NCBI RefSeq assembly: GCF_016756395.1
Contig: NZ_AP018365.1
Location: forward strand, 1,116,001-1,180,000
Length of the DNA: 64,000 bases
From: Streptomyces sp. SN-593
GTDB taxonomy: Bacteria; Actinomycetota; Actinomycetes; Streptomycetales; Streptomycetaceae
Direction: 5' to 3'
The translations under genes were made by a program, and so were the position numbers. Below are positions 50,425 through 60,274 of this stretch, one piece after another. Position 1 is the stretch's first letter. Every line of letters starts with the position of its first letter. The notes beneath the pieces are model-generated. The model had not been told where the DNA came from, made no database searches, and saw only the letters and a program-made list of their open reading frames with translations.

Positions 50425-50449
50425 CTGAGCGCTGAGGGCCGGCGCTCAG
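50425..50449 (-). terminator. hairpin at the chaplin stop codon
   Basis: Perfect 8-bp arms ctgagcgc (50425-50432) and gcgctcag (50442-50449) with a 9-base loop. The stop codon of the collagen-like chaplin gene (50446-50448) lies in one arm. Confidence 0.5.
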
Positions 50450-51162
50450 CGGCGCGCGGCGCGTCCGCGACGGTAGAGCAGGGCGCCGCCGAGCAGCAGG
50501 GCTCCCGCGGCGCCGGCGATCATCCCCATGTCGTCCGCGCCGGTGTGGGCGAGGGTGGGAGTGGTGGCGCCGGTGGGCGTCACCGTCTGGGAGACGGGTA
50601 CGGCGCCGCCGGGGGTGTCCGGGGTGTCCGGGGTACCCGGGTTCGTCGGAGTGCCCGGGGTGGCGGGCGTACCGGGGGTGGTCGGTGTGCCGGGGGTGCC
50701 GGGGTTCCCCGGATTACCGGGGTTCCCGGGCGTACCCGGGTTGCCAGGGTTCCCCGGCGTACCCGGGTTGCCAGGCGTGCCCGGGTTACCGGGGCTCCCC
50801 GGCGTGCCCGGATTCCCGGGGTTGCCAGGCGTACCCGGGTTGCCCGGCGTGCCCGGATTCCCCGGGTTCCCCGGCGTACCCGGGTTGCCAGGCGTACCCG
50901 GGTTGCCCGGGTGGCCGGTGTCGCTGTTCCCGCAACTGTTCCCGAACGCCGGGTTCAGCAGGGCCAGCACGTCGACCGTGTTGCCGCACACGTTCACCGG
51001 AACGTGCACCGGCACCTGGACGGTGTTGCCCGACACCACCCCTGGCGAGCCGACCGCCGCGGCGCCCGCACCGGCGTCCGCGTGGGCGAGCCCGCCGCCC
51101 GCGACGAGCACCCCGCCCGCGGCGACCGCGGTGAGCAGGCCCTTCTTCGTGACCTGACGCAT
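50446..51162 (-). CDS. collagen-like chaplin with class E sortase signal
   Basis: A 238-residue surface protein. Signal peptide 1-28 (cut after AHA); one chaplin domain (about 36-77) with the two conserved Cys59 and Cys77 ([24 protein letters not shown]); 26 unbroken Gly-x-Pro triplets (83-160; [12 protein letters not shown]); a Thr/Pro stalk; then LAHTG (204-208), a hydrophobic span and an Arg-rich tail. LAxTG is the class E sortase signal, so it should be cell-wall linked. S. coelicolor has chpC in this place, but long chaplins there carry two chaplin domains and no collagen tract. Confidence 0.9.
50683..50916 (-). repeat. 26 Gly-x-Pro triplet repeat tract inside the chaplin gene
   Basis: Nine-base codon triplets (Gly-Asn-Pro and Gly-Thr-Pro alternating) repeated 26 times without a break. 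Wobble bases vary between copies while the amino acids do not, which argues for selection on the protein. Confidence 0.9.
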
Positions 51163-51246
51163 GGATCGTTTCCTGCCTTCGCTTACGACTCTTGACCGGA
51201 GCGGCAGGGAACATCCATGCCCCCGCACTCCCCGGAAATGGCGAGC

Positions 51247-51278
51247 GGCCCCGGCGCGCCGCGCGGGCGTCCGGGGCC
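51247..51278 (-). terminator. candidate terminator after chpH
   Basis: Arms ggccccgg (51247-51254) and ccggggcc (51271-51278) around a GC-rich loop, in the 202-base gap between chpH and the longer chaplin gene. Confidence 0.45.
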
Positions 51279-51364
51279 GGCCTCCCCCGCGCACTCGGGC
51301 GCGGGAGGGTTCCCGAACCGCGGCCGGAGGGGCCGCGGAAGGTTCCAGTGCTGCCAGGACGTGC

Positions 51365-51598
51365 CTAGCCGTTGACGCAGGTGTTCCCGAAGGCGGGGTT
51401 GAGCAGCCCGATCACGTTCACCGTGTTGCCGCACACGTTCACCGGGACGTGCACCGGGATCTGCACGACGTTGCCGGACAGCACGCCGGGGGACTGCACG
51501 GCGGCGCCCTGCGCGCCCGCGTCGGCGAACGCCAGGCCGGCGCCCGCGAGCACCAGACCGCCGGTGGCGGCCACGGTGGCCACGACCTTCTTGATCAT
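51365..51598 (-). CDS. chpH: short chaplin ChpH
   Basis: A 77-residue protein. Signal peptide ([20 protein letters not shown]..., cut after AFA at about 25), then a single chaplin domain with both conserved Cys residues ([22 protein letters not shown]). Secreted, amyloid-forming surfactant that lets aerial hyphae leave the aqueous layer. Strong tccaggagg ribosome site. Position and size match S. coelicolor chpH next to chpC. Confidence 0.95.
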
Positions 51599-51752
51599 TG
51601 TTCCTCCTGGAAGGGGACGGCGTGGTCCAGGAGCCGCGGACCACACCCGACGTAACGACAAGGAGGAAGCGGGGCAACGAAGGGGGCACGGCATTCACCC
51701 GTACCGGCGACCTGGAGCCACCGGTACGGGCAGGGCCGGGCGAGGGGGCGGG

Positions 51753-53311: not shown

Positions 53312-53399
53312 GTCCGGGTGGCGGAATGGCAGACGCGCTAGCTTGAGGTGCTAGTGCCCTTTATCGGGCGTGGGGGTTCAAGTCCCCCCTCGGACACCA
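53312..53399 (+). tRNA. tRNA-Leu (anticodon GAG)
   Basis: Acceptor stem gtccggg/ctcggac (53312-53318 with 53389-53395). Anticodon stem ctagc/gctag around ttgaggt gives GAG. Long variable arm gtgccctttatcgggcg, T-arm ggggg-ttcaagt-ccccc and an encoded CCA end. A type II (long variable arm) leucine tRNA. Its 3' part is repeated at 59161-59180, so it is the attachment site of the island to its right. Confidence 0.96.
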
Positions 53400-53405
53400 G
53401 CAGAG

Positions 53406-53430
53406 ACCCCAGTTGACCTGGGGTTTTTCT
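53406..53430 (+). terminator. intrinsic terminator behind tRNA-Leu
   Basis: Stem accccag/ctggggt (53406-53412 with 53418-53424), loop ttgac, then tttttct. One of the few canonical T-run terminators in the window; it ends the tRNA transcript. Confidence 0.85.
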
Positions 53431-53609
53431 GTTTCCCCGGCTGTGGCGTGGCCAACGACGTGACCAAAAGCCGAGCGAATCTCCTGGTCAGACCAGGGAT
53501 GACAGGCCGAGTCGGCCCGCTCCGGAGGCGGCCGGTCGCGCGCTCTGTCCTTACGTGCGTGCCCGTACCGGGCCATGGTGTAGCCGGGCGAGCGAGCTTG
53601 CTCCGGTTT

Positions 53610-53807
53610 GACGGACAGCGGCCTGACCACCAGCGAAAGTGACGAGCCGGCTGCATTGCGGCGGGAGAACCGCCGTCTGCGCGAGGACGTGGAGGTCCTC
53701 AAGCGAGCCACGGCCTTCTTCGCGAAGGAGACCCGGTGACGGTGCACCCGTTCATCGAGGCGGAGAAGCAGGCGGGCCGCAGCGTCAAACGGGCGTGTGA
53801 GCGAGCG
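53610..53807 (+). pseudogene. IS3-family transposase remnant (orfA end, orfB start)
   Basis: The orfA frame reads ...ALRRENRRLREDVEVLKRA and FFAKETR, then TGA at 53737-53739, the standard IS3 OrfA C-terminus with its leucine-zipper helix. A GTG at 53736 overlaps this stop and opens the orfB frame (TVHPFIEAEKQAGRSVKRAC), which breaks off after about 24 codons. No terminal repeats found. A relic at the island's left edge. Confidence 0.85.
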
Positions 53808-53833
53808 CCTGAGACCGGCGCACAGCCACGCAG

Positions 53834-54688
53834 TCAGGCGCTCACCTCGGAGTGCACCGGGACGGGCGGGCGAACTCCGGTGAGCGCCTCTGCACGGGCC
53901 ACGAGGCGGGGCGCAAGCTCGGGATACCAGCCACGGGCGACGGCTTGCAGCATCTCGGCCAGGGCTGCCAGTTCCCCCATTCGGCCGGCGGGGGTGTCGA
54001 GGGTCGGCGCGAACTCCTTCCGGATGCGGGCGGCAACGTCGGGCACGAGCAAGCTGTTGGCGTGGAGGAGCCCCGCGTCATAACCGAACGGCACTCGGCC
54101 CCACCGCTCCCAGTCCAACAGGCACAGGGGTGCGGCAGTGAGGTTGCCCCAGTGCAGGTCACCGTGACCGGTCACCCGCTCCACCTTGGCGGGGGCCGGG
54201 ACGCCGAGAAACTGGGGGAAGGCCCGTTCAATCCACCCGTCCCGCACGGTTGCCTTCACTCCCTCCGCTTCAGCGAGGAGGACAAGGGCTCGGCGAAGGT
54301 CCGCCCACCACTCGTCAGGCAACCCCGGGTCATGGTCGATGTCGGCCCGTTCCGGGGACACGATGGGTTGCGTGAGGTAGTCCAGGACTTCCGACTCGAA
54401 GGCCCACTCGCCGTCAGTCCAGTCATGCACCGCGTACAGGTGGGGGCGGGGCACGCCGTCAGGCACCAGCTCCGAGGCACCCACGATGCCTTCCCTCGCC
54501 TTCCTGCCCGCGTTCCTCCTCGCCGTCCGGCTCACCCGTAGCCACCGGTCCCCCGCTCGGCGCCCGAGGGTGACACCGAGGAAGCCCCACGCCAGCGGCC
54601 CCGTGCAGGTAAGGCCCAGTGCGTTGGCCGCCCGGTCGTGGGCGGCCTCCATCAGGGCCCGCACCTCCTCATTCACCGGCGAGTTCAT
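53834..54688 (-). CDS. APH-fold kinase-like protein of the peptide-modification operon
   Basis: A 284-residue aminoglycoside-phosphotransferase-fold protein. The catalytic loop HGDLHWGN (175-182; Asp177 base, Asn182 metal) and metal-binding Asp192 (CLLDWERW) are intact. The N-lobe is short. The start overlaps the aldo/keto reductase stop by 20 bases, making it the last gene of a coupled set: peptide, JmjC oxygenase, reductase, kinase. Class V lanthipeptide and thioamitide pathways use APH-type kinases on Ser/Thr of a precursor; here the substrate is unproven and a small-molecule kinase is possible. Confidence 0.8.
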   Translation of the reverse strand: MNSPVNEEVRALMEAAHDRAANALGLTCTGPLAWGFLGVTLGRRAGDRWLRVSRTARRNAGRKAREGIVGASELVPDGVPRPHLYAVHDWTDGEWAFESEVLDYLTQPIVSPERADIDHDPGLPDEWWADLRRALVLLAEAEGVKATVRDGWIERAFPQFLGVPAPAKVERVTGHGDLHWGNLTAAPLCLLDWERWGRVPFGYDAGLLHANSLLVPDVAARIRKEFAPTLDTPAGRMGELAALAEMLQAVARGWYPELAPRLVARAEALTGVRPPVPVHSEVSA

Positions 54689-55574
54689 CCGTCACCCTCC
54701 TGAGTTCCCGGGCCGTCAGCGGCGCAGCCAGAGCCTTGGCCACATCGTCCCAGTGCTCGCGGGTGCTCGCGGAGGTGAGGACGACATCGAGGCCGGGGCA
54801 CGAGCCGGCGGCCAGCAGGGCTGCGGCTGCGGCCGACAGGCCGGGGCGGATGAAGTGCACCAGTTCGGGTGTCATGGTGTCGAGGAGTTCGCCCCCATGC
54901 AGGGGAGCAGAGCCGAACGTGATCAGCCCCGCGTCCTTCGCCTGTACCAGTGGTCCGCCACCGTTCAGGGCCTGTGTGATCGGGGCATCCATGATCAGGC
55001 TGACGGGCATCTGCAAGCCCGTGAAGTGGTGATCGGCGGAACCGGCCGCCTGACGGGCGAGCGTGAGCAACTCGGGGACGCTGAGCGCTCCGGAGGTCAG
55101 GCCCGACCAGGTGGCGACGCCGTACCCGCCGATCCTGTCCGCATGGGCGGACTCTTCCAGCGCGGTGAAGGCTTCCCGTACGCGCCCGTGCAGAGCGGCA
55201 CGGTCAAAGCCGTGCCCGTGATGCTCGGGGTTGTGCACGAACACCAGGTCCACGCGCCCGAGCGCGGCCAAGGATCGCTCCGTCTGCCAGCGGACGAAGC
55301 CCCGTTCAAGGCTGTGCCTACCGGCCGCTTCCTCCCGGGTGAGCACTCCCTCAGTCAGGGCGGTACGGCCTTGGTCCTCCGTGAAGAACCCCGTCTTCGT
55401 GGCTACCCGCACGGTCGGGTACTCCCCGAGAACCGGGCGCAGCTCCTCATGCGCCAGACCGCGGGCGTAGTTGGGTGCCGTGTCCACCCAGGGACTACCA
55501 GCAGCCAGGGCTGTGCGCGCCGCCTGACGGACGGCACGCACGCGGTATGTCCCCAGGCAGAGCACGGCGGTCAC
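54669..55574 (-). CDS. aldo/keto reductase of the peptide-modification operon
   Basis: A 301-residue AKR-type barrel. VTAVLCLGTYRVRAVRQAAR start; Asp/Tyr pair in WVDTAPNYARG; Lys in ATKTGFF; His in VFVHNPEHHGHG; NADP-site-like VVLTSASTREHW near the end. Its GTG start at 55574 overlaps the JmjC gene stop (GTGA), so the two are coupled. The start is shorter than most AKRs, beginning directly at the first barrel strand. The substrate may be the 45-residue peptide or a small molecule. Confidence 0.8.
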   Translation of the reverse strand: MTAVLCLGTYRVRAVRQAARTALAAGSPWVDTAPNYARGLAHEELRPVLGEYPTVRVATKTGFFTEDQGRTALTEGVLTREEAAGRHSLERGFVRWQTERSLAALGRVDLVFVHNPEHHGHGFDRAALHGRVREAFTALEESAHADRIGGYGVATWSGLTSGALSVPELLTLARQAAGSADHHFTGLQMPVSLIMDAPITQALNGGGPLVQAKDAGLITFGSAPLHGGELLDTMTPELVHFIRPGLSAAAAALLAAGSCPGLDVVLTSASTREHWDDVAKALAAPLTARELRRVTDELAGE

Positions 55575-56767
55575 AGCGCCGTCCCCACGACTACGACGGC
55601 GTGGCCGTCGATGAGGACGGAGACCAGTTCGGCCACCTCCTTCACCTCCAGCCCAGTGGAGTCGGCAAGTTCGCCCAGCGTGGTCGGCTGGTTGGTCAGC
55701 AGCGTGCCCAGCGCGGGCGCGGCGGACTCGGCGAAGTCCCACGCGGTACCAGCCGCCGAGAAGGTGACCGTGCCCTGTTCGCGGTTCGCCGTCAGGCGGC
55801 CCCTCGGGGCGGTGAGCTTCACCGTGATCTCCCGCCGTGTGGGGAGTCCGTCCACATAGGGCAGAGACGGGATCGCGTGGCCCAGGTCCGTCGTGTCGAT
55901 CGACTCTGCCCACCGCTCCACGAGGCGGGGGTCCGCCATTATGTCGGCAACCTCACGGCGTACGGCGTCGGTGAAGTCCGACTGTTCCGCCAGCGAGCCG
56001 AAGCGCGGGATGTCCCTGCGGAGCGCGAGGGACGCCCGAAGCTGGTCGACGACCCAGAGCATCAGGTCAGCGCCCGTGTGAGGGACCATCCCGAACGTGA
56101 GGTGAAGGGATTCCGTCCCCTGGTCAGCGGTGACCGAGTGCCACCAGCCGCGCGGCAGGTAGAGCACGTCACCCGGGGACAGAACGAGGTCCGCCACCGG
56201 GTCGCCCTCCGGCTCCTCCGGCGACTCCACGTCCCGGAAGGTGGGCGCTTCACGGGTCATCCCCCACAGGCGCCACCGCTTCGAACCGTGCAGTTGGACC
56301 ACGACCACATCGTGGTCGTCCCAGTGCCGCCCGAAGCCCTCCCGCTCGGTCCACGAGGCGTACACGTTGGCCTGTACGGATGTCCCAAGGAAGCGTTCCA
56401 GTCCCTCCGCAGCCGCCCCCACGGCGGGGTGGATCTTCTCCACCGCGTCCAGGACCAGCGACGCCCCGTCCCTGAGCTGGGCGTGGAAGTCGGACGGCTG
56501 GATGCGGGACCATGTCACCGCGCGGCGGTTCGTGGTCGGGATCGCGTAGCGGTGGAGCGGGATCATCTCGCCGTCGACCGACAGGCGAAGCCGGGGCGGC
56601 TCCAGCCGCTGCGTGGCGATGATCAGGTTCAGGTCATCCCAGGAGAACAGCCCCGCCGTGTCGGCGGCCCCGGGGAAGTGCGCGTAGGAGCGGTGGTACG
56701 TCTGGGCGAGGAACGTGTCCCCGCCCAGACGCCCCGCCCACGAGGCTGCATCAAGCAACGTGGGCAC
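55571..56767 (-). CDS. JmjC/YcfD-type Fe(II)/2-oxoglutarate oxygenase
   Basis: A 398-residue protein. Double-stranded beta-helix with iron ligands His148 and Asp150 (GRHWDDHDVVVVQLHGSKRW) and His210 (PRGWWHSV). The C-terminal winged-helix-like domain (PTTLGELADSTGLEVKEVAEL) is as in ribosomal-protein hydroxylases of the YcfD/ROX family. These enzymes hydroxylate His, Arg or Lys side chains in proteins. It starts 5 bases after the 45-residue peptide gene, so that peptide is the obvious candidate substrate. Confidence 0.87.
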   Translation of the reverse strand: MPTLLDAASWAGRLGGDTFLAQTYHRSYAHFPGAADTAGLFSWDDLNLIIATQRLEPPRLRLSVDGEMIPLHRYAIPTTNRRAVTWSRIQPSDFHAQLRDGASLVLDAVEKIHPAVGAAAEGLERFLGTSVQANVYASWTEREGFGRHWDDHDVVVVQLHGSKRWRLWGMTREAPTFRDVESPEEPEGDPVADLVLSPGDVLYLPRGWWHSVTADQGTESLHLTFGMVPHTGADLMLWVVDQLRASLALRRDIPRFGSLAEQSDFTDAVRREVADIMADPRLVERWAESIDTTDLGHAIPSLPYVDGLPTRREITVKLTAPRGRLTANREQGTVTFSAAGTAWDFAESAAPALGTLLTNQPTTLGELADSTGLEVKEVAELVSVLIDGHAVVVVGTAL

Positions 56768-56772
56768 TCCCG

Positions 56773-56910
56773 TCAGTCGTTGCCGTCGGAACGGCCACTG
56801 CTGACGTCGGACTCCTGCTCGGCGCGGGTGCGCGCGGCCACGATCTTCCGCTTCGCGACGAGCAGGCCACCCCCCTCGGGGGCCACCGAAGCGGTGTTCT
56901 CTTCCACCAT
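56773..56910 (-). CDS. 45-residue peptide, candidate precursor
   Basis: A 45-residue peptide starting MVEENTASVAPEGGGLL, with a basic middle (VAKRKIVAARTRA, 18-30) and a hydrophilic Ser/Gly/Asp-rich end (SDVSSGRSDGND, 34-45). The ATG at 56910 has a gagaggtag ribosome site. It has no Cys, Trp or signal peptide. It is placed immediately before the JmjC, reductase and kinase genes. The layout (tiny gene, then tightly coupled modification enzymes) is that of a ribosomally made, post-translationally modified peptide; possible targets are the Lys/Arg cluster for hydroxylation and Ser37/38/41 for phosphorylation. Confidence 0.7.
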   Translation of the reverse strand: MVEENTASVAPEGGGLLVAKRKIVAARTRAEQESDVSSGRSDGND

Positions 56911-56933
56911 CGGACTACCTCTCTCTTCTCGGG

Positions 56934-56952
56934 GAACTCCCGCCGGGAATTC
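56934..56952. promoter_or_regulatory. near-palindrome in the leader of the peptide operon
   Basis: The 19-bp sequence gaactcccgccgggaattc is a palindrome apart from one pair and the central base. It lies 24 bases before the peptide start. It may be an operator for the island's XRE regulator or a leader hairpin. Confidence 0.45.
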
Positions 56953-57038
56953 GGCAGGGAGCAAAGGGAGACAGCGGTGAGTGCGGCGGCTACCGGGATC
57001 GCCAGAGTTCCGGCGAGAGCCAGGACGCACGCCGCGCA

Positions 57039-57245
57039 TCACGTCGCCTTCGGCTCCACCGCGACGGGGCGGAGAGCACTGGCAGGCAACGGACCGCGGC
57101 CCGTGCACCAAGGGCACCCGCACGGCGGGTACTTGGTCGGCAAACCCAGAATCACCGCATTGTGCGGCTCCACCTGCACCTCACGAACCGGGCCGTACGT
57201 CCGGCCGCCGTCGTACGACACCCGCAGAGTCATGCGCCCCGTCAC
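57039..57245 (-). CDS. small CxCxxC protein of the island
   Basis: A 68-residue protein. TLRVSYDGGRTYGPVREVQV is followed by PPCGCPWCTGRG, a compact Cys3 cluster, and a Pro/Ala tail. It resembles small proteins often found beside XRE-DUF5753 regulators in streptomycetes. The GTG at 57245 is taken as start, with ATG 57233 as the alternative. It lies 128 bases upstream of the peptide gene on the same strand and may be co-transcribed. Function unknown; the 160 bases to its right hold no gene. Confidence 0.6.
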   Translation of the reverse strand: MTGRMTLRVSYDGGRTYGPVREVQVEPHNAVILGLPTKYPPCGCPWCTGRGPLPASALRPVAVEPKAT

Positions 57246-57405
57246 GAGCGCGAACCACCATCAGGGCCGAACGTCCGCCGGTACTCCAGCCCCCGGCCCA
57301 CGCCGTAACGCACCCGCTCTTCGTTTCGCTCGGTCGCTGTCATGGGGGAAATCATCGGCCCAGAAAGTGGCGGCTGTGCAGTTCTTTCCCGTCATGGACT
57401 AAAGA

Positions 57406-58239
57406 TCATGAACGGCAGGCGGCAGCCCACTCCGTCAACAAGGCTCGCGCTTCGGCCCCGAACAGCGCGTACCCCTCCAGTGCCGAGAACAGTTCCACAT
57501 GCATTTCGATGTCGCGTGGATCTCTCAGGATCACGACTCCGGTGGTGTTCTCCACAGTGGCCAGGGTGTTGTCGTAGACAGTGAAGGTGTCCATCGGAGC
57601 CATGGGCTTGCATCCCGCAATGGGGATGACACCGAGCTTCACATTCGGCAGATGGGTCAATGAGGCCACCCGGTCGATCTGCATCGCCATCGCGGCCGGG
57701 GGCAGGATTGGCCACCTCACGGCCTGTTCGGTGAGGATGAAGACGAACCGCTTCTTCGTATCGTAAAGAACCTCCTGCCGCTCCAACTTCCTCGCAATCG
57801 TCTTGGTGACATCAGCCGGTGAATGGGAAAGGCTGGCCCGGATGTACTCAGGAGTGGACAGGAGCCCCGTAATCATCGAGAGCAGGAAGAAGCGGAACTC
57901 GGTAGAGGAGGATTCAAGCGCGGCAAGTTCGGTCTGCTTCTTCTCCAGCCCCCTTCGCCGCAGCGAGCGCAGGTCTTGCCACTCGGTATTGGCCAGCCTC
58001 GCGAGGGCAATGACCTCCTCGATGACCTCGGGCGGAGCGACGACAGCCCGGAGGATTCTCTCCAGGTCGAGCAGGCTCGGTTGCGCTTTCCCGTTCTCGA
58101 TCCGACTGATCTTCGATTGGGACATGTTGCAACGCCGAGCGAGCCGGTCCCCAGTGAGGCCGGCTCGATTGCGTAGTTCTTTCAGCAGGGCGGCCAATTC
58201 TTGCTCAGGCTGCCCCAACTGTTCAGGGTCGAACGTCAC
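57406..58239 (-). CDS. XRE-family regulator with DUF5753
   Basis: A 277-residue protein. Cro/C1 helix-turn-helix at about 15-70 (LLKELRNRAGLTGDRLARRCNMSQSKISRIENGK, in part), then the DUF5753 domain (LLSMITGLLSTPEYIRASLS to ALFGAEARALLTEWA). Streptomycetes have many such proteins, each paired with a small DUF397- or DUF6879-type gene. The GTG start overlaps the stop of the DUF6879-like gene (GTGA). It is probably the island's regulator. Confidence 0.9.
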   Translation of the reverse strand: MTFDPEQLGQPEQELAALLKELRNRAGLTGDRLARRCNMSQSKISRIENGKAQPSLLDLERILRAVVAPPEVIEEVIALARLANTEWQDLRSLRRRGLEKKQTELAALESSSTEFRFFLLSMITGLLSTPEYIRASLSHSPADVTKTIARKLERQEVLYDTKKRFVFILTEQAVRWPILPPAAMAMQIDRVASLTHLPNVKLGVIPIAGCKPMAPMDTFTVYDNTLATVENTTGVVILRDPRDIEMHVELFSALEGYALFGAEARALLTEWAAACRS

Positions 58240-58748
58240 CCGCTCACGTACTCCAGGAATGGAACCGACTCGGCTACGGCGATCCGCTTCCACTGCCGAT
58301 ACGGCTCAGGATCACCCTTGTACAGTTCCCGGTTTATCTGCGTCCCGTCCGCCCGGTAGTTCATCAGAACCACCTTGGACTCATCGAACATCCAGAAATC
58401 CCGATCCGGAAGCCCCGGGCTCTCCCGCTCGGTGATGTCGAGAATGCGGATATCCTCGCCCGCCTTCACGTGGTGCCGGTAGTAATACTCGAACTCGAAC
58501 CGGAGGTAGTCCGAGAGCGGGCGGGTCACGACGTGCACCCTGCCGACGCTCTTCCCTTCCGATGCCCATTGCCGAACCTCGTCCATCCAGGCCGACGTGT
58601 AATCGTCCGGGGACTTCTCCCCTGCGAGGAAGCGCTTCAGCTTCTCCGCTTCCTGGGGCATGGTGTAGACGGGCAGCGTTTCCAGCCGCCACGCCGCACG
58701 CTCCATGGAATCGAAGCAGTCATTCCACGCGTCACCATCCAAGTGCAC
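58236..58748 (-). CDS. DUF6879-type protein
   Basis: A 170-residue soluble protein. WNDCFDSMERAAWRLETLPVYTMPQE at the start, RVHVVTRPLSDYLRFEFEYYYRHHVKAGEDIRILD (in part) in the middle, DFWMFDESKVVLMNYRADG near the end, matching DUF6879. The GTG start at 58748 has a gggaga site. Coupled at both ends: a 17-base overlap with the upstream small gene and a GTGA overlap with the XRE gene. Typical partner of XRE-DUF5753; biochemical role unknown. Confidence 0.82.
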   Translation of the reverse strand: MHLDGDAWNDCFDSMERAAWRLETLPVYTMPQEAEKLKRFLAGEKSPDDYTSAWMDEVRQWASEGKSVGRVHVVTRPLSDYLRFEFEYYYRHHVKAGEDIRILDITERESPGLPDRDFWMFDESKVVLMNYRADGTQINRELYKGDPEPYRQWKRIAVAESVPFLEYVSG

Positions 58749-58941
58749 GGAATGTCTCCCTGAGAACCGCCTCCGGGATTTCCACGAGCCCTTCCCCGGA
58801 GGGCGGGGTGAAGGCGTTGGACACGTCGCCCTGCACGACGAACGATCCCGTGGCCGTGCGGTACACGTTCGGGCAGTCCTTCTCTCCGCACTCGCCGTTG
58901 CCGTTGCCCGTGAGCCGGGTGAGTGCCGAACGTCCGGGCAT
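58732..58941 (-). CDS. small conserved partner protein of the XRE/DUF6879 set
   Basis: A 69-residue protein. GNGECGEKDCPNVYRTATGSFVVQGD carries two Cys; the C-terminus is LVEIPEAVLRETFRALGW, a pattern seen in small genes that sit ahead of DUF6879/XRE pairs. First gene of the island's regulatory operon. Function unknown. Confidence 0.75.
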   Translation of the reverse strand: MPGRSALTRLTGNGNGECGEKDCPNVYRTATGSFVVQGDVSNAFTPPSGEGLVEIPEAVLRETFRALGW

Positions 58942-59129
58942 GCCAAACCCCCTTGCTCCAGGCCCGTTCGGGCCGCCTGTCCACCGACAGTAGAAGGGGT
59001 GGCGCCACGCGTCTATGCATGAACGCGACTATGCGTGTCTTTGCATAAACAGGTCCCCGACCGCCCCGGCCACCCCCGGCACGTGGTCACGTACGCGCCC
59101 GTGCGGACTGGGCGCAGCCTCATGGCGCG
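58942..59129. promoter_or_regulatory. island promoter region
   Basis: AT-richer stretch with repeated tatgc-type words at 59010-59050 (ctatgcat, ctatgcgt, ttgcataaa), upstream of the minus-strand regulatory operon. On the minus strand gcatag occurs twice about 16 bases apart, which suits promoter and XRE-operator sites. No gene is seen here or from 59181 to 59443. Confidence 0.4.
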
Positions 59130-59180
59130 GTCCGGGATGGGCTGGTGCCCAAGAGGAGAGTTCAAGCCCCCCTCGGACAC
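59130..59180. pseudogene. degenerate tRNA-Leu fragment, right attachment site
   Basis: gtccggg at 59130-59136 and ctcggac at 59172-59178 are identical to the acceptor strands of tRNA-Leu at 53312. Between them is ttcaagccccc, close to the T-arm, but the D- and anticodon arms are lost. It marks the right end of the island. Confidence 0.65.
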
Positions 59181-59443
59181 GCGAGATCAGTACGGTGGCG
59201 TCCGGTCGGAATACCTTTCCGTCCGGACGTTTTTCCGTGTGCGCTCCCGCGTGGCCGAAACGCTACGGCGCCGACGGTGAGCGGTGCGTAACCGCCCGCC
59301 GGGCGGGGCAGGTACCCCACGCCCCTCGGGTCGGAGCGCTCCGCCACGGTTCCCGCGCGGCAGCCGGTCGGACGCCACCGCCGCGCGCCCTCCGGCCTCC
59401 AGGATCGGGCCGCCGCGCCCGCGACAGGGACGGGAGCGAGAAG

Positions 59444-60274
59444 GTGCCAGGAACTCCCGCGCTGGAGTTGCGGTCCGTGCGCCGGGTGTACGGGGCGGGG
59501 CCCTCCGCCACGATCGCCCTCGACGACGTCGCCGTGACGGTCGCGGCCGGCCGCTTCGTCAGCCTCATCGGCCCCAGCGGCTGCGGCAAGTCGACGCTGC
59601 TGCGGCTGGTCGCCGGCCTGGAGCGGCCCGACCGCGGCGAGGTGCTGGTGCACGGGGTCACGCCGGCCGAGGCGTGCGCCGCCAAGCTGATCGGGCTGGT
59701 GCCGCAGAGCCCGGCGCTGCTGCCGTGGCTGTCCGTGCTGCGGAACGTCACGCTGCCGCAGAAGATCAACCGCGGGGCCGGCGGGCGCCGCGCGCGCCTA
59801 CCGGGGTTCACCGAGCGGGAGGCCGCGCCGTCGGTCGCGCACACGCGCGACCTCCTCGTCCGGGCCGGCCTGGGCGAGGTCGTGCACAGGGTTCCGGCCC
59901 AGTTGTCCGGCGGGATGCGGCAGCGCGTGGCGATCGTGCGCGCCTTCGGCCTGCGGCCGGACCTGCTGGTCATGGACGAGCCCTTCTCGGCCCTGGACGA
60001 GTTCACCCGGGAGAGCCTCCAGGACCAGTTGCTGGACCTGTGGGAGGAGTTGCGGACGACGGTGCTGTTCGTCACCCACTCGGTCACCGAGGCCGTCCGG
60101 CTCTCGGACACGGTCGTCGTGATGGCACCGGGGCCCGGCCGCATCGTGGAGACCGTCGAGATCGACCTGCCCCGGCCGCGCGGGGAGCGCCTCCTGCGGG
60201 AGCGGCGCTTCCACGCGTACGAGGACCTGCTCAGGGAGCGGCTGCGCCGCGCCTGGCACGGCGGCGGCGCGTGA
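59444..60274 (+). CDS. ABC transporter ATPase, SsuB/TauB type
   Basis: A 276-residue protein. Walker A GPSGCGKST (about 40-48), Q-loop in LVPQSPALLPW, signature LSGGMRQR, Walker B LLVMDEPFSALDE, switch His in VTHSV. The sequence groups with ATPases of the nitrate/sulfonate/taurine/pyrimidine-precursor importers. The GTG start has a gggagcgagaag site. First gene of an importer operon with a flavin monooxygenase. Confidence 0.92.
   Translation: MPGTPALELRSVRRVYGAGPSATIALDDVAVTVAAGRFVSLIGPSGCGKSTLLRLVAGLERPDRGEVLVHGVTPAEACAAKLIGLVPQSPALLPWLSVLRNVTLPQKINRGAGGRRARLPGFTEREAAPSVAHTRDLLVRAGLGEVVHRVPAQLSGGMRQRVAIVRAFGLRPDLLVMDEPFSALDEFTRESLQDQLLDLWEELRTTVLFVTHSVTEAVRLSDTVVVMAPGPGRIVETVEIDLPRPRGERLLRERRFHAYEDLLRERLRRAWHGGGA

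Follow-up and report, generated by a model that had tools for sequence, protein, structure and literature searches.

Does the gene for a 45-residue peptide that precedes three enzyme genes in Streptomyces sp. SN-593 encode the precursor of a ribosomally synthesized and post-translationally modified peptide (RiPP)? We addressed this question in a window of 64,000 nucleotides (NZ_AP018365.1, positions 1,116,001-1,180,000 of the forward strand; Streptomycetaceae), whose close DNA relatives are from Streptomyces. The minus strand of the window carries, in this order, genes for the peptide (56773..56910; ATG start; MVEENTASVAPEGGGLLVAKRKIVAARTRAEQESDVSSGRSDGND), a 398-residue JmjC_2 (PF08007) Fe(II)/2-oxoglutarate oxygenase of the ribosomal-oxygenase type (55571..56767; GTG start), an aldo/keto reductase (AKR) of about 301 residues (54669..55574; GTG start) and a predicted APH-fold kinase of 284 residues (53834..54688). 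An earlier sequence-only reading had described these as four coupled genes of a RiPP-like system, and its account of their spacing was exact to the base: a 5-base gap separates the stop codon of the peptide gene from the GTG of the JmjC gene, the TGA stop of the latter overlaps the AKR start in GTGA, and the AKR and APH genes overlap by 20 bases. We consider it likely that the four genes are a RiPP-type cassette that is complete in itself and moves horizontally; at about 3.1 kb, it would be among the smallest plausible RiPP systems.

The evidence for such a unit comes from its conservation. Loci were fetched from 395 genomes of one actinomycete family and from the GTDB contig collection, with genome thresholds of E<=1e-90 for the JmjC protein and E<=1e-4 for the peptide. 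A close JmjC relative was present in 172 loci, a number that includes duplicate strains; at a loose redundancy cut there were 121 distinct JmjC loci. The sequence-only reading had suggested searching genomes for the JmjC gene together with the small gene, AKR and APH, and all four were found in the same order and on the same strand in 161 of the 172 loci. The peptide, JmjC and APH genes without AKR were present in 6, and in 169 the JmjC gene had the peptide gene immediately before it. The locus thus displays a genomic feature of RiPPs, namely a precursor beside tailoring enzymes that is conserved as a unit. The JmjC gene occurred in 75 and the peptide gene in 76 of the 395 family genomes, with their positions nearly always adjacent. 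JmjC homologues found mostly without the small gene would have spoken against the sequence-only reading; among the 86 loci with JmjC scores above 480 bits, the peptide was directly upstream in 84, APH was present in 85 and AKR in 77. Of the two loci without an upstream peptide, L164 retains a GKGDGND* remnant and L165 has a JmjC gene truncated at its 5' end.

The linkage also holds over considerable sequence divergence. A search of 100 relatives returned JmjC homologues at 94, 93 and 86% identity, followed by a group at 46-54%. The three enzymes have diverged in parallel (r of 0.86-0.90 over 63 loci), with none of 999 permutations giving values as high. Another actinomycete family likewise has full four-gene cassettes (L208-L214), and MDRNDHGGELLVAVEEIAVARSRGEQPSDGGGTGRSDLNDNAHH is an example of their precursors. 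No gene beyond the four recurred in more than 16 of the 121 loci, save for reading frames antisense to the cassette, which made up two larger clusters. As a control, we examined 13 lower-scoring JmjC_2 loci: 10 were without a match to the peptide, AKR or APH, and the other 3, which had AKR and APH, belong with the divergent group described below. As judged from these sequence comparisons, it is these four genes that make up the conserved unit. Separately, decayed cassettes were observed at L053, L169 and L170, where the peptide or a remnant of it accompanies a truncated or lost JmjC gene, indicating recent loss.

The peptide itself is conserved in a manner expected of a protein under selection. 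In the window peptide, a leader of approximately residues 1-33 with the conserved GGLLVAKRKIVAARTR precedes a core, residues 34-45, of SDVSSGRSDGND (56776..56811, minus strand), in which D35, G39, D42, N44 and D45 are invariant columns in two alignments (A1 and A9). The same bipartite layout of leader and core was seen in the other precursors, the division being assigned from sequence. The leader consensus from 127 distinct peptides is GLLxARRxIxAARxR, preceded by a variable N-terminus. All 127 peptides have D-x(6-7)-D-x-N-D near the C-terminus, followed by nothing in most of them and otherwise by 1-4 further residues. The typical core consensus is SD-x-x-[GS]-[ST]-G-[RKV]-[STG]-D-x-N-D with a tail of 0-4 residues, and the frequent cores are SDVSSGRSDGND, SDGGSTGRTDTND, SDNTGGKSDQNDT, SDGGSTGVSDSND and SDGGGTGKGDGND. 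A Ser/Thr-Gly pair lies within the core of 126 of the 127 peptides; the exception has TA in the core SDGGGTAKSDGND and comes from L156, a locus without AKR and APH. Every one of the 127 cores has a hydroxyl residue and none has Cys or His. Precursor length ranges from 30 to 55 residues, the shortest being 30-33, and in the peptide of L032 the stop codon is lost and the frame reads on. Where the sequence-only reading had seen a Ser-rich tail, a conserved tail does exist, and it is better worded as the defined motif SDVSSGRSDGND.

Among peptides of the window's core type, synonymous differences (pS 0.243) exceeded nonsynonymous ones (pN 0.022) by about tenfold, which argues that selection acts on the peptide as a protein. 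The peptide and its relatives gave no meaningful Pfam or NCBIfam score. A peptide that was not conserved would also have counted against the sequence-only reading, and we found leader motif and core kept across at least two actinomycete families. A chance open reading frame is ruled out as the peptide gene by this conservation and by the substitution pattern.

The best case for a joint function of peptide, JmjC, AKR and APH is made by a second gene arrangement. In a divergent group of 14 loci (L044, L045, L171-L175, L177-L179, L221, L223-L225), the JmjC protein is about 30% identical and a related peptide, for example GLLMAVEELTAVHDRYDSLRSDNAGSSGDSPWPGGDGNLHDSE, is encoded upstream. The AKR gene lies just downstream of that for JmjC, and the APH gene is convergent in 13 of the 14 loci. 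Profile comparison connected the main and divergent peptide families with a probability of 91.8 and an E-value of 7.4e-7. The different arrangement indicates that the link between peptide and enzymes is independent of one operon. Divergent sister systems at L045, L171-L179, L221 and L223-L225 have cores of a PWPGGD type or a GENRDG type and a convergent APH gene, and at least two of them (L171 and L173/L174) lie near relaxase-like genes. We also noted another JmjC_2 branch at about 300 bits (L215-L217, and L192-L207 upstream of position 1501), in which an unrelated small peptide, for example MDPIEVEVEDLAEVTSRDITAGGDNDGTDSSSDFI, is encoded upstream and a prolyl oligopeptidase (S9) gene adjoins those for peptide and JmjC. 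This branch is possibly another undescribed RiPP-like system.

The three enzymes retain the residues that their families use for catalysis. The JmjC protein of the window matched Pfam JmjC_2 with E=2.3e-31, and NO66, MINA and YcfD are its nearest sequence relatives of solved structure. The sequence-only reading had noted a complete iron site of His148, Asp150 and His210; these residues are present and are invariant in 41 aligned relatives, and they fit the HxD/E..H pattern of the JmjC_2 family. In the last 100 or so residues, 12 of 36 relatives matched ROXA-like_wH (PF20514; best 5.2e-16), and the C-terminus of the window protein had no such match by itself. We assign the corresponding region (55574..55870, minus strand) as a winged-helix-like domain on which the leader could dock. 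The AKR matched Aldo_ket_red (PF00248) with E=2.5e-12, its catalytic tetrad of D32, Y37, K61 and H115 is invariant in aligned relatives, and its predicted model (pLDDT 92.8) resembled AKRs with Z 24.5. The APH-like protein scored 18.0 bits against Pfam APH (PF01636), which is below the cut-off of 23.2. The catalytic loop that the sequence-only reading had called intact is there, as HGDLHWGN and LLDWE, and each of H175, D177, N182 and D192 is unchanged in all 49 sequences aligned. The predicted model of this protein (pLDDT 95.4) had Z 15.3 to an APH and Z 13.8 to LxmK, and on that model it is clearly an APH-fold kinase.

We propose the following mechanism. The peptide is likely the substrate of the enzymes and would dock via its leader, perhaps on the winged helix that ends the JmjC protein. 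As a tentative assignment, JmjC may hydroxylate the beta carbon of one of the invariant Asp residues, or of the invariant Asn, in the core. The target of the kinase might be the Ser/Thr that precedes Gly in the [ST]-G pair, or else the newly introduced hydroxyl, although we would put this at somewhat under an even chance. The AKR is more doubtful and would be an optional step; it could reduce or re-set a carbonyl that arises from further oxidation. Trimming and release would be performed by host functions, and export would be left to the host as well. The product may be a secreted natural product. The sequence-only reading had stated that a lyase, protease or dedicated exporter is absent, and indeed none travels with the four genes in the 121 non-redundant loci. 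Without a lyase in the cassette, the phosphate would be retained rather than eliminated, or else serve self-protection. Other sites of modification were considered and judged unlikely. An Arg site for JmjC, by analogy with YcfD, is disfavored by a position that is occupied by R, K or V, a His site was rejected for want of any His in the core, and the C-terminal carboxylate is disfavored as a common site by the tails of 1-4 residues that follow ND in many loci.

Several observations weigh against the four genes being a RiPP cassette that works as just described. No protease or transporter recurred in the flanks of about 5 kb on each side at the 121 loci. The winged helix is also the fold of RiPP recognition elements (RREs), but none of the PqqD/RRE models matched the JmjC C-terminus; an RRE at this place was thus not confirmed, and the weak PDB matches there are at chance level. 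AKR is absent in one sublineage and so is not essential to every product. The intact AKR-free lineages have the core DGGGTGKGDGND in common, but they are probably one clade, so that the tie between this core and AKR loss is correlation only. Finally, core sequences vary far less here than those of most antimicrobial RiPPs do, and a signal, a cofactor-like molecule or a molecule with a fixed target would fit this near-constancy as well as an antibiotic does.

The role of the kinase is where an alternative has the most to offer. Aminoglycoside and peptide-antibiotic phosphotransferases inactivate their substrates by phosphorylation, and the APH gene could likewise be a self-protection gene whose product inactivates a toxic mature peptide, with the other genes acting as proposed above. 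The nearest APH folds include the resistance kinases APH(4)-Ia and corramycin phosphotransferase, and in the divergent group the APH gene usually lies apart from the peptide operon, on the other strand. However, nearly all close relatives have APH as the final gene of an operon with tight overlaps, a hydroxyl residue is always kept in the core, and the biosynthetic kinase LxmK matches about equally (Z 13.8). Self-protection is thus rather unlikely, at perhaps one case in four. A different role for the peptide, that of a carrier on or from whose acidic end a small molecule is built before the peptide is recycled, would resemble pearlin scaffolds and amino-group carrier proteins. Such a role would suit the acidic and nearly invariant end, the presence of several enzymes together and the absence of a protease or exporter, but none of the genes conserved around the 121 loci is of a ligase, ATP-grasp or PEARL type and the C-terminus varies by the 1-4 residues found beyond ND in many of them; we regard a carrier as improbable.

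The small size of the peptide gene and its place directly upstream of the JmjC gene, a few bases apart, would also suit a regulatory partner or a translational leader of that gene rather than a substrate. To our knowledge, JmjC enzymes of the ribosomal-oxygenase type otherwise work without such a peptide. Selection on the amino acids, together with a motif that is kept over about 50% enzyme divergence and in another gene arrangement, makes this explanation slightly less probable still than a carrier. That JmjC, AKR and APH genes came together here by chance, beside a small reading frame that is spurious, is hardly credible: all three enzyme families are common in Streptomyces, but the gene order in 161 loci, the parallel presence in 395 genomes, the co-divergence and the invariant motif refute it. 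We therefore favor a peptide that is modified by the enzymes encoded beside it. The linkage and the conserved leader and core support the original suggestion of a RiPP-like system, and the chemistry is what we infer.

The genomic setting suggests that the cassette moves. Five loci (L047, L105, L109, L110 and L112) match the window DNA only in the four genes plus a short upstream stretch of a few dozen to about 120 bases. The adjoining stretch 57320-59137 aligns in L031, L101-L104 and L106 but not in those five loci; it contains an XRE/DUF5753 regulator gene (57406..58293, minus strand; Pfam) that accompanies the cassette in close relatives only and lies outside the core unit. Plasmid records with the JmjC gene number 34 and include pSV2 and pSglau1, both of which carry the whole cassette. 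When plasmids were searched by tblastn for the 45-residue peptide, seven from Streptomyces matched. Six have the four genes annotated, in this order, as a small protein, "cupin", "aldo/keto reductase" and an APH-like protein (hypothetical protein or phosphotransferase); on the seventh, the peptide gene accompanies a truncated JmjC gene. The flanks of the window site are 546 bp apart in genome G004 as opposed to about 6.4 kb in the window (53399-59800), suggesting that about 5.8 kb, including the cassette and the XRE-type regulator, was inserted here or lost there. The edge of this island is a tRNA-Leu(GAG) gene (53312..53399, plus strand; ARAGORN). No direct repeat of the tRNA 3' end that could be an attachment site was found within the window. 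The G007 cassette adjoins another copy of tRNA-Leu and is not near the M20 peptidase gene.

A phage origin and a defense role were considered and rejected, as the peptide had no match in 50,697 phage records and the four proteins matched no PADLOC model of a defense system. A short open reading frame beside the cassette (53608-53739), ending in ENRRLREDVEVLKRATAFFAKETR, resembles a remnant of an IS3-family transposase OrfA. Farther away, 50446-51294 and 51365-51694 encode what we take to be two chaplin-like proteins, the longer with GTPGNPG collagen-like repeats and a sortase-like tail.

Although about one-fifth of the sampled family genomes carry the cassette, as do known plasmids such as pSV2 and pSglau1, no curated family matches its peptide. 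A single peptide would be both hydroxylated by JmjC and phosphorylated by APH, and the near-fixed core suggests a specific target or a signal common to actinomycetes. A JmjC oxygenase dedicated to a peptide and an APH kinase that acts without a lyase would be enzyme types of general interest that can now be tested directly. It is conceivable, though we would not bet on it, that the cassette represents a new RiPP class without a known class-defining enzyme. Its product would be a hydroxylated phosphopeptide, with an invariant Asp/Asn hydroxylated by JmjC, a retained APH phosphate and an oxidized side chain adjusted by AKR. It would be encoded by a minimal mobile four-gene cassette on plasmids and tRNA-linked islands, with a sister class of PWPGGD-type core in related organisms.

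How does the cassette compare with known systems? NO66, MINA53, YcfD and ROXA are, like the cassette JmjC, JmjC_2 proteins with an HxD..H iron site and a winged-helix-like C-terminus. These ribosomal oxygenases are encoded by single genes and act on ribosomal proteins, whereas the cassette enzyme is coupled with a peptide gene of its own. The gene set was undescribed in open-access PubMed Central text, a search that leaves preprints and subscription journals outside and is not proof of novelty. A 2025 RRE survey reports JmjC-RRE fusions (PF08007) and bacterial homologues in RiPP-like contexts (PMC12710340); its passage on these proteins does not describe a peptide/AKR/APH system, and no RRE model matched the cassette JmjC. 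Biphenomycin-type RiPPs (bip/bpm/pbs) share with the cassette a JmjC oxygenase accompanying a ribosomal precursor, and their JmjC enzyme BipG/BpmG, a precedent for JmjC chemistry in RiPPs, hydroxylates ornithine in biphenomycin precursors (PMC12257519, PMC12707348). The cassette is without their MNIO, arginase, B12 radical SAM and TldD protease, its core lacks the aromatic FHAFRF, and its AKR and APH are not listed for biphenomycin clusters. A precedent for an APH-fold kinase in a RiPP operon is given by class V lanthipeptides and thioamitides (LxmK, SprPT, thioviridamide-type), where it acts with a HopA1-type protein (PMC7794033 for the gene content). The cassette has other partner enzymes and neither a conserved HopA1-type lyase nor a core Cys, and it thus has no apparent route to lanthionine or dehydroalanine. 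By the features that define those groups, the cassette belongs neither to the class V lanthipeptides nor to the thioamitides or biphenomycins, and it has a fair chance of standing as a class of its own.

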